From Capitulum mitella (lineage: Eukaryota > Arthropoda > Thecostraca > Pollicipedomorpha > Pollicipedidae), in the NCBI GenBank assembly GCA_030062745.1, contig CP099847.1, positions 1,844,304-1,908,303 on the forward strand: a DNA stretch of 64,000 nucleotides. The letters run 5' to 3'. Of the stretch, positions 32,837 through 47,645 are shown piece after piece. The notes under the pieces are model-generated. The model did not search any database. It saw only the letters and a list, made by a program, of their open reading frames with translations, and was not told the DNA's origin. How positions within the stretch are numbered: position 1 is the first letter of the stretch; the number at the start of each line of letters is the position of its first letter. The position numbers were made by a program, and so were the translations under genes.

Positions 32837-35136
32837 TAGGGATGCACCGAATCGGGATTTTTGTGATCTGGCCGGGATTTTTGTGATCCGGCCGGATACC
32901 GGATGCGCCGGATCGGGGTGCCGGATATCCGGCCGGCTACCGGATATTATGGTTATTTTTATTTACTGTTTGTTGCTGAAAAATGAAACGAAAGACTGAG
33001 CTGAAAAAGGAAGATCTCTAAAGCTGAAAAATATCAAATAAAAATATTAATTGTTCGTGAATCATTCCTCCTAGCGCTTACAGTTATTGCGAGGTTTCCA
33101 CATGTTCCAATGTTAAAAAAAAAAATGAATACGCAACACAGCAGTCATAGCGGAGCTTACCATCTCTGACTGTAGGCAAACGGCGAAGGCTCCAGAACAC
33201 GCAGAATGCCATTATAATGCCTTGGTGGACCTAGAATACCTGGCTTGATAAACATTCCTTACAAATACTAAGGCATGTCCATGGAAGTACATTGTCCTTT
33301 AATCCGGATCCGCCTGGAGAGTGTCAAATAGGGCACACGCCTCGGTTTTTCTCGAATAGCTTCTGAACAGTTAGAGTTAACCCGAACAAGTTTTCAGTAC
33401 CTGTTCATCAATTTATTTTACATATTCTGACATCAAACCATTTTCGTGCTAGTCAAGTCATGGAGATATGAGTCATAAGTGAACTCCCGCATGTATGATT
33501 TTGCCTTTTCTGGCAGTGGTGAGAACATGCTTCATTTTTTGGGCAGTATTCGCGAATAAAATGCATGAATTGTTTTGATTTACATAGGCCACGATTCCCC
33601 AAAAAGGATACAGGACAGACACAAGTCAACATTAGAGGTCATGCTAGGTCACATGCATGATGACAATGGGACTGATTTGCGTTGTGGGTGACTGAAGTGC
33701 TTGACGTTGACCTTTCCATCATTCAAGCCAGACAAGCAAATCTATATGCGCCTCTTGGCAAGGTTCACTAAATGCAACGTGAGGTCATGTCGGGTCGCGT
33801 CATAGGTAGATGTCAAAACGAAATGAAATAGGTACAACATTCAGCTGAAGCAAATGAAGGTCGTTCGGTGGCAAACAAAAAAAAAAACAAAAACAAATGA
33901 AGATCGTCCAGTAGCAGCAGAGAGTAATGGCTGTTCCTAGTTAGAAGAAAAAAATGACTATCTATCGTGACCTGGCTTGACCTTGACCCGATAAAGAGCA
34001 GACAGAGCAGATTTGATTATCACGAGATATCATCTCAGTTATGTGCTTGATGGAGTGAAAAAATCCCAGCGAGTTATTATTGCTCTTTGGCAGGAAGAGT
34101 AATGCAACGTTATCTGACCTGACCTAGACTGACCTTGACCAGATGAAAGTCAGGTGATGCAAAACTGGTCATCAGAAGGTTTCACTTCCGTCGTTTTTGT
34201 TACGTAGATCAAAACGGCTGCAAATAGGTATTTTCACCTGACCTAGGCTGACCTTGACCCGACATTTCTGAACACTAAAGCATAGTTATGGTGCAGAAGA
34301 TCGTGGCCTTTCCTTCGATACCCAGCTGAAGGTTCTAAGACCACTATACCGATGATATGATGTACAAACCGATGCCAGTTTTTTACGACGTTGTGTTATG
34401 AGTTTACGTGACTTGGAACGTCATCAGTCACGTGACCAGGGCCAACATAGTATTTTCTGAACTGTGAGATTCAAGGTTATCGATTGATGGTAGACCGACT
34501 CAGATCCAACGGTTAGATCCCGAGATAGCAGAGGGGTGCCCTTTTTGACACCCCCAGGCGGTTGCGGGTACGAAAACAGGCCAGGCGGTGCCGAGTTAAT
34601 GCATTTGCGCAAGAGTATTTGAGGCAGATAAAAATGTTTGGGAAACAGAAAGATGATGCACCACAAAATGACTGCTGAACATATGCTGACTGTTGCTGCA
34701 GTGTTTTGAGTATGAAACCCACCCTTGCAAATTATGTCTCAATCCTTCCGAACAAGGAAGAAAAAGTAGTGCTCCAGACAGACCTTGGACCCATTGGTGA
34801 AGGAGCCTCTCCAGAGATGGCGCCGCAAACCTATTTCTTAATTTGTTTTTTTCATGCAACGCCATAAACTTAATGTAAAATTTCGACCGGAAATGAGGGG
34901 GGGGGGCAGCTGCCCCCTCTTCCTCTCTAATCGGCCGCTCCTGCTTAGAACTGTCAGCTACATCGACAATCTAATATAACAAGGCACGTTGCTCCCGAAA
35001 CGGTTTTGTAGGCAGACATTAGAACGTCTCGATCGTACATTCGAAGGCCAAATATCCGGAAATACCCGGCCGGGTACCGGATACCGGATACCGGGCACCG
35101 GATATCCGGCCGGACCGGATATCCGGTGCATCCCTA
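32837..35136. mobile_element. Non-autonomous hAT-like element
   Basis: The ends are exact inverted repeats: TAGGGATGCACCG at the left and CGGTGCATCCCTA at the right, bordered by a perfect 8-bp duplication GTTATGTA. An 8-bp duplication with a short inverted repeat of this kind is typical of the hAT superfamily. Both subterminal regions (32,850-32,945 and 35,050-35,128) are packed with CCGGATA/TATCCGG words, probably transposase-binding sites. There is no transposase frame. A separate TTAA MITE (33,303-34,595) is nested inside and makes up more than half of the length. Confidence 0.85.
33303..34595. mobile_element. TTAA-flanked MITE (family D), full copy nested in hAT
   Basis: Flanked by TTAA (33,299-33,302 and 34,596-34,599). 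Aligned with the partial copy at 37,541, the left end reads TCCGG-(C/A)-..CCTGG followed by GTGTCAA and AGGGC. The right end on the other strand reads CTCGGCACCGCCTGG, and after a 27-bp partial duplication GGGTGTCAAAAAGGGC, so the two ends are inverted repeats. The interior has many GACCTGACC and GACCTTGACC words. No transposase is visible. Confidence 0.8.
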
Positions 35137-35819: not shown

Positions 35820-37540
35820 TGGTCGTTTAATATCTTGAAAAATAGCTCTAAATACTCCTGGTTTTTAGACATCGTTTACATGCCATTAACAAACGACAAT
35901 CAGTATACCCGGAGACACTGTATTGCTATGTAAATCAGTAACATATATATAACATATATATATATTACTATGTATTGTATGTATTGCTATGGAAATCAGT
36001 AACATATACATACAACACATATATATATATATAACATAACATAACAGAACATCAGAAATATATTAGACTCAACGTTTCGGCCAGGAGCCATCGTCAGGAG
36101 AAATCTAGAGCACGAAGTCAGAATTCAAATGCACATGGAAAAAGATGTTTGACAAACAGAAAAGCTACCATGACACTGTCGACGCTCAAAAATGACGAAT
36201 ATAATATCAAACAGCAAAGCAATGCGAGCAATAAAAAGGGTCCTAACTTTATTTATACCCAAAACAATCAGGGGTGCCACTAAAACAAGAGCCTGTGAGA
36301 GACAAGAAGAACCAAAGATATATGTATAGTTCACGTAGCTAATAAAAAATAAAAGCTATGATAGGCCCCCCTCCACCAACTACCCCCCCCCTCATAGAAA
36401 AACCACACACACCAACAATAACAAACCATGAAATCCTTAAGAAGCCAAGACGAACCAAATATATATTTGTGGTTTTCCAAACGAACGAAAACCCAACTCC
36501 AAGCGATACAAGCGAAGCTACTCATGCTATGTACCAAGATGTTGTCTGTGTGTTTAGCTGAGGCTGGAGACTTCTGATGTGTAGAGATTCCAGAACTTTC
36601 AGGTCGGTGTTGTCTCTCGCTGTTGCCGGTCGCTGCGAAGTTGTTGTTGGTGTCACAGTGTTCCATTCCTGGATGTTTGTCAATCATGTGCTCGCCTAGG
36701 GGTGTGTTTGCCCTCCGAAATGTGGCATCCTCCATGTGCACGTTGCATCGATCCCTTACGCTACGTTTTATTTCTCCGACATAAAAATTCCAGGACAGCT
36801 ATCGCATGTAACCTTATATACTAGATTTGTCTGTGTACACTTGCCTTTTAAACCAACGATGCAAGTGTGGCACGTTCTCCTGCCAGCAGGGCACAGGGGG
36901 TTCTCCAAAACAGAACGGACCAAAAATGATTTCAGTGTGGGTGCGCTACTCCACGTTACCCTGACATTGCTCAGACGCGACGGACGAAATTGCGATCGAG
37001 TTCACCTGTCGACATAGTTTGTCATCAACGAAAGGAAGTTTCATGTAAACACAGTTGGTTTCGTTGTCCGTTTTCCGAAGACTCTGCTGGGAAGACCTAC
37101 GACTGCCATGAGGACGTGCAGCACGAGCGGCGCAATGCAGCCGATGTGCGGGGTACCCGTTTTGTAGAAAAGAGCCATCATTTTCGCTAAGCTCCACTCA
37201 CATGAGTTAACATCGGACAAAACTCGTGCTGCTCTCCTCCTTTGCGACGTTAAAACGTTTTTTTTTTTACAGCCATTGGGTGGGCCGAATCATGATGCAG
37301 GATGATGGGGGCTGCCATGGATTTGAAATATAGCGCATTGGTGTAGCTCTCATCCGCCTGAATCACAAACAAGGTATCGAGGAAAGGAATCGATCTCGTA
37401 TGCCCGGTATGCTCCAATGAAAACGATATGCTAGCATGTTGTTGGTTAAATTCCGCGAAAAATTCGAACAGGGAATCCCAGCCATGTGTCCAAATCCCGG
37501 AAAGATTATCTACACAACGCATGCAGAGTGCTGGCTTTAA
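35820..37540 (-). mobile_element. Penelope-like element, minus-strand copy A1 (5'-truncated)
   Basis: Read on the minus strand, the copy starts in the reverse transcriptase at LKPALCMRCVDNLSGIWTHG. The CVDN there occupies the place of the catalytic YxDD, so the site is already damaged. It continues with SLFEFFAEFNQ, SIPFLDTLFVIQADES and HHDSAHPMAVKK, standard PLE reverse-transcriptase wording. Further on it encodes the GIY-YIG-type endonuclease tail (MHMEDATFRRANTPLGEHM and following) and then the 3' untranslated end. Frameshifts break it. The 3' end contains a hammerhead-like motif. The 5' boundary falls exactly at a TTAA where a MITE begins. Confidence 0.85.
36055..36110 (-). ncRNA. Hammerhead-ribozyme-like motif in PLE A1
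   Basis: On the minus strand: CTGACGA, then a GGC/GCC hairpin, then GAAAC, GTTGA and GTC. The order CUGANGA, stem II, GAAA, short stem III and GUC cleavage triplet is that of a type I hammerhead, known from Penelope-like elements. One extra U lies between the core A9 and stem II, and stem I is weak here, so activity is doubtful. Confidence 0.5.
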
Positions 37541-38356
37541 TCCGGCACCACCTGGCGGGTGTCAAGTAGGGTGCCCCTCGGTTTTTTTGTGAATAGCTTC
37601 TGAACCATAAGAGCCAGCTCAGCCAATTTTTAAATGCGTGTTTATCAATCAGTTTTACATATTTTGACATCAAAACCATTCTTGGTCAAGTCATGGAGAT
37701 ATGACGTCATACATGAACCCTTGCATGCCTGTTCAGCCCCTTCGGTCGGTGGCGCGAACATGCTTGTTTTTTGTAATGTTCGCGATTATAATGCGTGGGT
37801 TATTTGGATTTACACAGGACACGGTCCCCAAAAGGATATCCAATTGTGACACGTCAGCATTAGGGGTCATGCTATGTCACATGCATGATGACGATTGAAA
37901 TGATTTGCATTGCGAATGATACAAGTGGTTGCCGCTGACCGTCTCCATCGTTCAAGCCAGACAAGTAAATCTATGTGCGTCTCTTAACAAGACTCACCAA
38001 ATGCAAGATGAGGTCTTGTCAGGTCACGTCATAGGTTGATGTCAAAGCGGAATTAAATACAACATTGTCTGCGAAAGATCGTTCAGTAGCAGCAGAAAGC
38101 AAATATTGTTCGTAGTCAGAACATCAAAAGTGACCATCTGTCCTGACCTGGCGCGACCTTGACCCGATAAGGGGCAGGCAGGGCAGATTTCATTACCACG
38201 GTATGTCATTTCAGTTCCGTACTTGACGCAAGTAAGAATCCCAGCGAGTTATTATTGCTCCTTGTCAGGAAGAGTAATACAGTCTTATGTGACCTGGCCT
38301 AAAATGACCTTGCCCAGCCTTATGTGACCTGGAAAACAGGTAATGCAAAACTGACT
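37541..38356. mobile_element. TTAA MITE (family D), truncated copy
   Basis: A clear direct-orientation relative of 33,303-34,170. It starts TCCGGCACCACCTGGCGGGT after TTAA (37,537-37,540) and runs through matching landmarks such as AGTCATGGAGATATGA, TCAAGCCAGACAA and CCCAGCGAGTTATTATTGCT up to AATGCAAAACTG. There it stops and plus-strand PLE sequence begins. About one third of the family length is missing at this side. Confidence 0.85.
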
Positions 38357-40250
38357 GTGAAAGAAGAGTTCCCTTCCAAACTGCCAGCGGGCAGCATCGT
38401 TTTTCACCATGGACGTGACAAGTCTTTCCGGCAGAATTCCCATACATGAAGGGATAGCTGCTGTGTTACATCTCATTGAAAGCAATCTAGACGTCATTCG
38501 TCTGTTCAGTACCATTGTACAGGATTGCGCGAAACTCCTGACACATGTTTTCAACAACAACCTCGCACGTTTCGGAAATTCCCTGTACAAACAAACCAAA
38601 GCAATGGCTACAGGAAACCGCTGCGAACTTCCACTTGCGATTGCATTTATGCATTGCCTTGAGTCAGTCTTCTTAACTTTGTGCAGGTTAAAGTCAGCCA
38701 TCTGCATGCGTTATACATAAAATCTTTCCAGGATTTGGACACATGGCCTGGATTCCCTGTTCGAATTTTTCACGGAATTTAATCAACATGCTAGGATATT
38801 GTTTTCATTGGAGCATACCGGGCACACGAGATCGGTATTGTCAGGGACAACGAGATCGATTCCTTTCCTCGATACCTTGTCTGTGTTTCAGGCGGATGAG
38901 AGCCACACCACTGAGCTATATTTCAAACCCATGGCGGCCCCCATCATCCTGCATCATGATTCGGCCCACCCAATGGCTGTTAAAAAAAAAACGTTTTAAC
39001 GTCGCAAAGGAGGAGAGCAGCACGAGTTTCGTCCGATGTTAACTCATGTGAGTGGAGCTTAGCGAAAATGATGGCTCTTTTCTACAAAACGGGTACCCCG
39101 CACATCGGCTGCATTGCGCCGCTCGTGCTGCACGTCCTCATGGCAGTCGTAGGTCTTCCCAGCAGAGTCTTCGGAAAACGGACAACGAAACCAACTGTGT
39201 TTACATGAAACTTCCTTTCGTCGATGACAAACTATGTCGGCAGGTGAACTCGATCGTAATTTCGTCGCGTCTGAGCAATGTTAGAGGTCACGTGGAGTAG
39301 CGCACCCACACTGAAATCATTTTTGGTCCGTTCTGTTTTGGAGAACCCCCTGTGCCCTGCTGGCAGGAGAACGTGCCACACTTGCATCGTTGGTTTAAAA
39401 GGCAAGTGTACGCAGACAAATCTAGTATATAAGGTTACATGCGATCGCTGTCCTGGAATTTTTTATGTCGGAGAAATAAAACGTCGCATCAGGGATCGAT
39501 ACAACGTGCACATGGAGGATGCCACATTTCGGAGGGCAAACACATCCCTAGGTGAGCACATGATTGACAGACATCCAGGAATGGAACACTGTGACACCAA
39601 CAACTTCGCAGCGACCGGCAACAGCGAGAGACAACACCGGCCTGAAAGTTCTGGAATCTCTACACATCAGAAGTCTCCAGCCTCAGCTAAACACACAGAC
39701 AACATCTTGGTACATGGCATGAGTAGCTTCGCTTGTATCGCTTGGAGTTGGGTTTCCGTTCGTTTGGAAAACCACAAATATATATATTTGGTTCGTCTTA
39801 GCCTCTTAGGATTTGATGGTTTGTTATTGTTGGTGTGTGTGGTTTTTCTATGAGGGGGGTAGTTGGTGGAGAGGGGCCTATCATAGCTTTTTTTTATTAG
39901 CTACGTGAACTATACATATATCTTTGGTTTTTCTTATCTCTCACAGGCTCTCGTTTTAGTGGCACCCCGATTGTTTTGGGTATAAATAAAGTTAGGTCCT
40001 TTTTATTGCTCGCATTGCTTTGCTGTGTGATATTATATTCGTCATTTTTGAGCATCAGCAGTGTCCTGGTAGCTTTCCTGTTTGTCACATACCTTTTTCA
40101 ATGTGCATTTGAATTTTGACTTCGTGCTCTAGATTTGTCCTGACGATGGCTCCTGGCCGAAACGTTGTGACTAATATATTTTTGATCTGTTATTGATTAA
40201 GAAAGCAATACAGTGTCTCCTGGTATACTGAATGTCGTTCGTTAATTGCA
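38357..40250 (+). mobile_element. Penelope-like element, plus-strand copy A2
   Basis: It opens with FFTMDVTSLSGRIPIHEGI (about 38,400), the PLE version of reverse-transcriptase motif 'DVTSLYTNIP', and KAMATGNRCELPLAIAFMHC, in place of the GTAMG..MAP block. It continues in shifted frames with IWTHGLDSLFEFFTEFNQH, PFLDTLSVFQADES and HHDSAHPMAVKK. At 39,278-39,853 one frame covers a Cys-rich linker (CPAGRRTCHTC), the GIY-YIG endonuclease region (TCDRCPGIFYVGEIKRRIRD) and a tail. Catalytic motifs are degraded and frames are broken. It is homologous over most of its length to the minus-strand copy A1. Its 3' end shows a hammerhead-like core with a mutated cleavage triplet. Confidence 0.85.
40120..40175 (+). 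ncRNA. Hammerhead-like motif in PLE A2 (decayed)
   Basis: CTGACGA at 40,140-40,146, a GGC/GCC stem, then GAAAC at 40,159. The triplet that is GTC in other copies reads GAC here, which should abolish cleavage. Confidence 0.45.
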
Positions 40251-40261
40251 TGTATACTTTG

Positions 40262-47324: not shown

Positions 47325-47645
47325 CGTTTAATATCTTGCAGAATGTTTCTTAAATGCTCCTGGTTCCTTAGTCGTTGCATATACCTTTTCCATTAAGCGA
47401 CCCTCCATGTACCATGAGACACTGTATTGCTATATGAATCAGCTTACAAATCAAAGAGGATATTAGACTCAACGTTTCGGCCGGGGGTCATCATCAGGAA
47501 TAATCCAGAGCACAAATCAGAATTTAAAAACATATAAAAAGGCGTGTGAGAGAGTGAGAAAAACTCCTCAACACTGCAGTCACCAAAAAACAACGAATAC
47601 AGTATCACACAGCAAGGCAATGCGAGCAATAAAAAGGCTAAGGGC
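47325..47645 (-). mobile_element. Penelope-like element 3' end, copy B1
   Basis: It matches the 3' end of PLE A1 in the same orientation: TCGTTTAATATCTTG at the outer side, GAGACACTGTATTGCTAT, the hammerhead-like region, and AGCAATGCGAGCAATAAAAAGG at the inner side, where homology stops. No protein-coding part remains. Confidence 0.8.
47455..47510 (-). ncRNA. Hammerhead-ribozyme-like motif in PLE B1 (best core)
   Basis: The minus strand reads CTGATGA, an interrupted C/G stem II, GAAAC, GTTGA and GTC. Outside the core, GGAT and AUU segments pair with AAT and AUCC around a bulged U, giving a plausible stem I. All core positions are present, but one extra U follows CUGAUGA and stem II is weak. 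Confidence 0.55.

Follow-up and report, generated by a model that had tools for sequence, protein, structure and literature searches.

Two partial copies of a Penelope-like element (PLE) face each other on opposite strands, with a block of other DNA between them, in a 64,000-nucleotide stretch of the Capitulum mitella genome (contig CP099847.1, positions 1,844,304 to 1,908,303; referred to as the window in the following). This raises the question of whether such a layout reflects the way in which the element inserts. Based on the copies examined throughout the genome, we consider it likely, with a probability of about 0.68, that each head-to-head pair represents one insertion event, accomplished by two-ended target-primed reverse transcription. 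Among the features of the pairs that speak for this reading, neighbouring copies diverge, one arm of nearly every pair bears an additional 3' tail, and short duplications enclose a share of the pairs as a whole. The following features of the window are concerned (T and B denote positions in the profile of the terminal unit and in the body of the element, respectively):

35825 to 37539-37548, minus strand: left arm, a 5'-truncated copy of the Penelope-like element (profile T43-174 and T4-53, body B2287-3735)
35825..35870, minus strand: 3' tail extension of the left arm (profile end T174, compared with T125 in the right arm, which has no tail)
36075..36101, minus strand: hammerhead-like motif of the left arm (CTGACGA...GAAA core; pattern place C9:1880376, 0 mismatches)
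37536..38355, plus strand: piece of a high-copy dispersed repeat, exactly between the arms (40 scored places, ends of 10 copies)
38358-40258, plus strand: right arm, a 5'-truncated copy of the same element (body match B1959-3730, profile T5-125)
40139..40164, plus strand: hammerhead-like motif of the right arm (pattern place C9:1884442, 0 mismatches)
47327-47637, minus strand: left arm of a second pair, tailed (T4-173, B3591-3735)
47684 to ~48056, plus strand: right arm of the second pair, untailed (B3482-3735, T4-117)

The facing copies claimed by the original prediction (minus strand, 35,820-37,540; plus strand, 38,357-40,250) were recovered with measured ends within ~10 bp. The left arm has a tailed 3' end at 35825 and a 5' end in the reverse transcriptase region, the right arm ends untailed at 40258, and the two lie with their 5' sides facing each other, truncated at different points of one element. 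The arm-to-arm alignment proposed along with the prediction was carried out as a self-alignment of the window and yielded an inverted match of 92.4% over 1536 columns (36041-37548 / 40193-38681), together with an extra inverted match at 35874-35957 / 40257-40174. Compared directly, the left and right arms share 92.5% identity over 1527 columns, whereas none of the 16 other arms or copies covering this span exceeded 80.3%. The two arms thus gave no sign of belonging to different subfamilies and are mutually closest among the copies compared. The second inverted pair that had been claimed at 47.3-48.1 kb is likewise real and has the same orientation as the first. The terminal unit of the left arm in the first pair is broken by an AT-rich expansion with a partial duplication (window 35956-36050).

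The search was extended to the 477 Mb assembly (16 contigs), where the loci examined carry L-numbers. Three patterns were used, with 100 places listed for each: the ribozyme-like motif gave 141 matches at up to three mismatches (reversed control, 0), the tail pattern 130 (control, 0), and the untailed-end pattern 193 (control, 1). After the listed places had been merged into 250 ends, in which the left arm of the window is counted twice, neighbours within 6 kb among the matches listed were divergent in 32 cases, convergent in none, and on the same strand in three, one of these being the split arm of the window. For the list of the ribozyme-like motif only, 11 divergent and four same-strand neighbours were found within 12 kb, with 0.26 expected by chance among the matches listed. 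The prevalence of divergent over convergent neighbours supports the earlier proposal that the inverted layout reflects the mode of insertion.

Single copies did not predominate in the sample read. The 46 listed motif places with no or one mismatch correspond to 41 insertions, and the letters were read around 35 of them; 24 of these insertions with a near-intact motif were head-to-head pairs, ten were single, and one was a tandem. This proportion is an estimate and not a census, since a second motif gives a pair another opportunity to be listed and ~2 kb of the 5' side was read for eight of the ten singles; when all 24 pairs are halved for the double chance, pairs still account for about half. 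Among the 24, L052 and L053 were called from abutting arms with one 3' end unread, and the second arm of L048 comprises only 27 nt. A 36th insertion, L082, was also a pair, but was picked because the tail list showed its partner. Beyond simple pairs, three arms lie together at L038 (332-770; two on the minus strand and one on the plus strand), a layout suggestive of a template jump in the course of a single insertion, and a weak second head-to-head pair lies beside the first at L059 (1000-1191).

The 3'-end classes of the arms were read with a profile of the terminal unit. Of the 32 pairs in which both 3' ends were read, 29 had the tail of ~45 nt on exactly one arm, where half would be expected if the arms were independent (P = 1.2e-6). 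Without L081-L085, which were picked using the tail list, the count is 25 of 27. The tail count excludes L011, L017, L020, L028, L052, and L053, six pairs or probable pairs in which a 3' end had decayed or was not read, as well as L016, an apparent further pair with unread 3' ends, and L025 and L048, where the second arm was looked for in the expectation of the opposite end. For the right arm of L032, the tailed call was made by eye. The idea that the untailed (leading) arm is always the longer one was discarded, as it fails on a by-eye check across the pairs. At L046 (2100-2190), the tail holds a short inverted duplication of its own, that is, a hairpin within the 3' end.

The asymmetry of the tails bears directly on the self-priming model of PMC3846280, in which one complementary DNA (cDNA) or antisense RNA folds back and primes the second strand, both arms being copies of one molecule. 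Many pairs are indeed near-perfect palindromes with almost no loop, the available part of PMC3846280 argues from junction palindromes, and identity within pairs slightly exceeds the value for shuffled partners. Fold-back, however, predicts an equal 3' position on both arms, whereas the tail differs in the 29 pairs named above. Moreover, the arms often stop at unrelated 5' positions, fillers of 5-72 nt lie between them, and the second arms of L048 and L025 consist of just 27 and 19 nt of the 3' end, respectively. We therefore regard self-priming as unlikely, and the regularities of the pairs favour asymmetric two-ended priming over it.

Repeats flanking the whole pair with a score of at least 7 (in bp) were found in 12 out of 29 pairs, compared with 3.1% of swapped flanks, and those with a score of at least 9 in five out of 29 pairs, compared with none of the swapped flanks. 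The clearest cases were L029 (13 bp), L031 (13 bp), L045 (12 bp), L043 (11 of 12 bp), and L059 (9 bp). Two of six further pairs also scored at least 7, namely L083 and L084, the right boundary of the latter having been set after the repeat was seen.

A second regularity concerns the inner ends. Among the arms without body sequence upstream of the ribozyme-like motif, 17 out of 30 begin at one nucleotide, the A of TTACTCC, and almost all of these arms have G or C directly before this nucleotide, whereas none has the T of the body. In 51 arms with body sequence at the 5'-end site, TTACTCC was present in 20 and TTATTCC in eight. Since TTACTCC fits the initiator consensus YYANWYY, its A probably corresponds to the 5' end of the RNA. 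The fillers between the arms, as well as repeats of end sequence at the junctions of L034 and L021, are residues that the joining of cDNA ends or template jumps would leave. The filler of ~72 nt at L082 (215-287) is composed of irregular repeats of a CGTTAAT-like unit.

Pairs of ~250-330 bp with identical inner and outer end positions recur, and they could be taken for a hairpin element in its own right, palindromic and nonautonomous or MITE-like (MITE, miniature inverted-repeat transposable element), and not for a by-product of PLE insertion. This is very improbable in view of inner 5' ends that vary among the pairs, of the tailed arm occurring on either side (left in 17 and right in 12 pairs), and of differing fillers, none being shared among the junctions of 17 pairs compared by eye; long pairs with a protein-coding body follow the one-tail rule, too. 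In annotation, short palindromic pairs could be taken for MITEs or for genes of hairpin RNAs. The short pair at L031 (322-504) matched the Rfam family mir-2513 on both strands (E 2e-9; score 58, gathering threshold 89). This was the best hit in the Rfam search of 16 loci; it lies below the curated cut-off, and we attribute it to a general resemblance to long hairpins.

For the preferred reading, in which one two-ended reaction produces a pair, the following course may be proposed. An endonuclease, probably acting as a dimer, would cut the two strands of the target ~8-13 nt apart, so that 3' overhangs remain, and each target 3' end would then prime inside the element RNA, so that the 3' ends of both arms come to point outward. 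Of the two start sites, one arm uses that ~115 nt past the ATG (untailed) and the other arm that ~45 nt beyond it (tailed), an asymmetry which is visible in the pairs and whose cause would lie in the priming step. The cDNA would run until fall-off, often at the presumed RNA 5' end (the A of TTACTCC), and otherwise stop in the body; here as well, the end positions are seen directly and the run-off is the suggested cause. Run-off at the RNA 5' end would therefore give rise to very short palindromic pairs. Finally, the cDNA ends would be joined via filler, microhomology, or template jumps, and fill-in of the overhangs would create the target-site duplication around the whole pair. A stricter version, for which the odds appear about even, holds that the asymmetric two-ended reaction is obligate: each half of a dimer would be tied to one start site, nearly every complete insertion would be a one-tailed pair, and a run from the 5'-proximal copy of the start sites to the capped RNA end would yield the very short palindromic pairs.

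Several observations weigh against the one-event reading. The one-tail rule is broken in three of the 32 pairs, L021 and L040 having two untailed arms and L081 two tailed ones, and no flanking duplication was found at these three loci. Duplications were also not found at either pair of the window or at most of the pairs tested. The ten singles among the 35 insertions remain, and no clear short opposite arm was present in 13 of 15 singles scanned, L025 and L048 being the two in which one was found. Furthermore, the available part of PMC11167929 reports no difference in start sites between the strands in vitro, so that a strict asymmetry did not appear in that system. The partner arm was the closest copy in eight, but not in 18, out of 26 pairs. 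Old, similar copies can explain the non-closest partners, which add no support to the reading.

The singles, the same-strand neighbours, and the 18 pairs with a partner no closer than other copies would also suit two separate insertions, the second being attracted by the first, for instance by its AT-rich ends. We consider this origin improbable, because the neighbours among the matches listed are divergent and never convergent, the duplications enclose whole pairs, and the 5' ends of many arms meet with hardly any intervening sequence or none. In addition, in the youngest pairs compared, those of the window and of L014 (92.1% identity; next best 79.5%), the arms are far closer to each other than to other copies. 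As a proof of co-insertion, arm similarity thus works for young pairs and fails for most of the old ones. Across 25 pairs, the mean identity of the terminal units was 0.780 within pairs, compared with 0.763 after shuffling of the partners (p 0.0004); when the two youngest pairs were left out, the values were 0.773 and 0.760 (p 0.0086). This excess gives weak support to a shared template, and its small size fits old copies of a close-knit family.

Inverted insertions are also known from LINE-1 (long interspersed nuclear element 1), where twin priming on both nicked strands during target-primed reverse transcription produces an inversion; the inverted upstream piece has no 3' end of its own. The pairs described here differ in this respect: wherever both ends were read (32 pairs), the 3' terminal unit was present on each of the two arms.

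Among PLEs, the closest parallels are found in two systems, to the extent that the available parts of the publications describe them. For Poseidon of Anolis carolinensis (PAc), one of the Penelope/Poseidon-type PLEs with a GIY-YIG endonuclease, PMC11167929 reports that the cut lies 26 bp after the start codon, that reverse transcription begins 111-118 bp into the frame with a second start site explaining the tail, and that both target strands are cleaved and extended in vitro. The Capitulum element resembles PAc, as far as described there, in its hammerhead-like motif overlapping the ATG, the position of the GTC, and the two 3' ends ~115 and ~160 nt into the frame. It differs in that the evidence is genomic, that pairs dominate the examined sample, and that the start sites are split between the arms in 29 of the 32 pairs. 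For Penelope of Adineta vaga, PMC3846280 names head-to-head as the most frequent inverted arrangement of pseudo-long terminal repeats (pseudo-LTRs), and mentions that one of the inverted repeats may bear a 3' tail, that target-site duplications of 8-10 bp flank the entire insert, that palindromes occur at the junction, and that some spacers hold captured host DNA; it prefers self-priming on an antisense template. Head-to-head units, the one-sided optional tail, whole-insert duplications, and junction palindromes are shared with the Adineta elements as presented in that text, whereas the tail asymmetry and the fillers found here favour, unlike its model, priming from both target ends. The available part of PMC8969392 likewise mentions pseudo-LTRs in inverted orientation, as well as 3' extensions.

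A count of one-tail pairs was not found in the accessible part of PMC3846280, nor anything on pairs in that of PMC12910113, and neither a one-tail pair count nor a fixed 5' end was found in the open-licence papers searched. Earlier publications thus already cover head-to-head pairs, a tail that may occur on one of the inverted repeats, and in vitro priming on two strands; the new part consists of the quantified one-tail rule and the fixed 5' end, in a known arrangement of a known element class. Its relevance lies in the difference between the published insertion models for PLEs, which, according to the available texts, are self-priming (PMC3846280) and internal target priming with both strands extended in vitro (PMC11167929). 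The constraints obtained from many pairs, namely direction, one tail, a fixed 5' end, and whole-pair duplications, make a two-ended mechanism directly testable.

The element was tied to the Penelope-like group because of the geometry of its terminal unit, in which a hammerhead-like core overlaps the ATG, a GTC lies 26 nt after the A of this ATG, and two alternative 3' ends occur ~115 and ~160 nt into the ATG reading frame. Further features of PLEs were also found: an optional 3' tail of 30-45 nt (3'-end classes at ~T126-138 and T171-174), 5' truncation, head-to-head or tandem partial copies, target-site duplications, and, at one locus (L055), a pseudo-LTR structure in which the terminal unit T4-174 continues into body positions 28-131. 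In L055 (1858-2268), the terminal unit is also located upstream of the coding region and runs into the 5' body of the element.

At the protein level, LPRNHKANIPL and RYIDDIFGIWTH, from the decayed body of L010, are motifs which we take to be PLE-like reverse transcriptase motifs, and the GIY-YIG-like stretches VYKVTC...FYVGETK...RDRYNEH in L009, L010, L013, L014, L015, and L017 are presumably typical of PLEs. The decayed protein pieces had no relevant match in Pfam, including a GIY-YIG test with the decayed frame of the window, and were not recognised in the PDB; the predicted fold of a 295-residue piece was uninformative (pLDDT, predicted local distance difference test, 34). Rfam scored no hammerhead in the window at 30-50 kb (E up to 1) and none in 16 loci (E up to 5), so that the ribozyme is unproven and named after motif and position only.

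The block between the arms of the first window pair had been labelled a MITE in the original prediction, and this label is unsupported: no pair of terminal inverted repeats spanning the block was found, and the inverted repeats inside are short, the best one not being terminal on the left. For the very abundant repeat of which the block is a piece, a first look gave 3180 candidates genome-wide, of which 40 places were scored, with starts near query 137/138 and many stops near 955. The left terminus of the block is intact and is the common one, sharing ~6 nt with the inner end of the left arm. Its right part is gone where the right arm starts and is present in all ten other copies compared, and because it is missing exactly there, the idea of a MITE inserted at the junction was dropped. 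No second copy of the whole chimeric junction was seen among the 40 places scored out of the 3180 candidates. As a guess concerning this one locus, the block could have been captured at the junction, perhaps via a template jump.

Another copy of the same repeat, with a sharp left terminus, is located at 33297-34142 of the window. Finally, the minus strand at 32568-32640 matches a transfer RNA gene (Rfam score 66).

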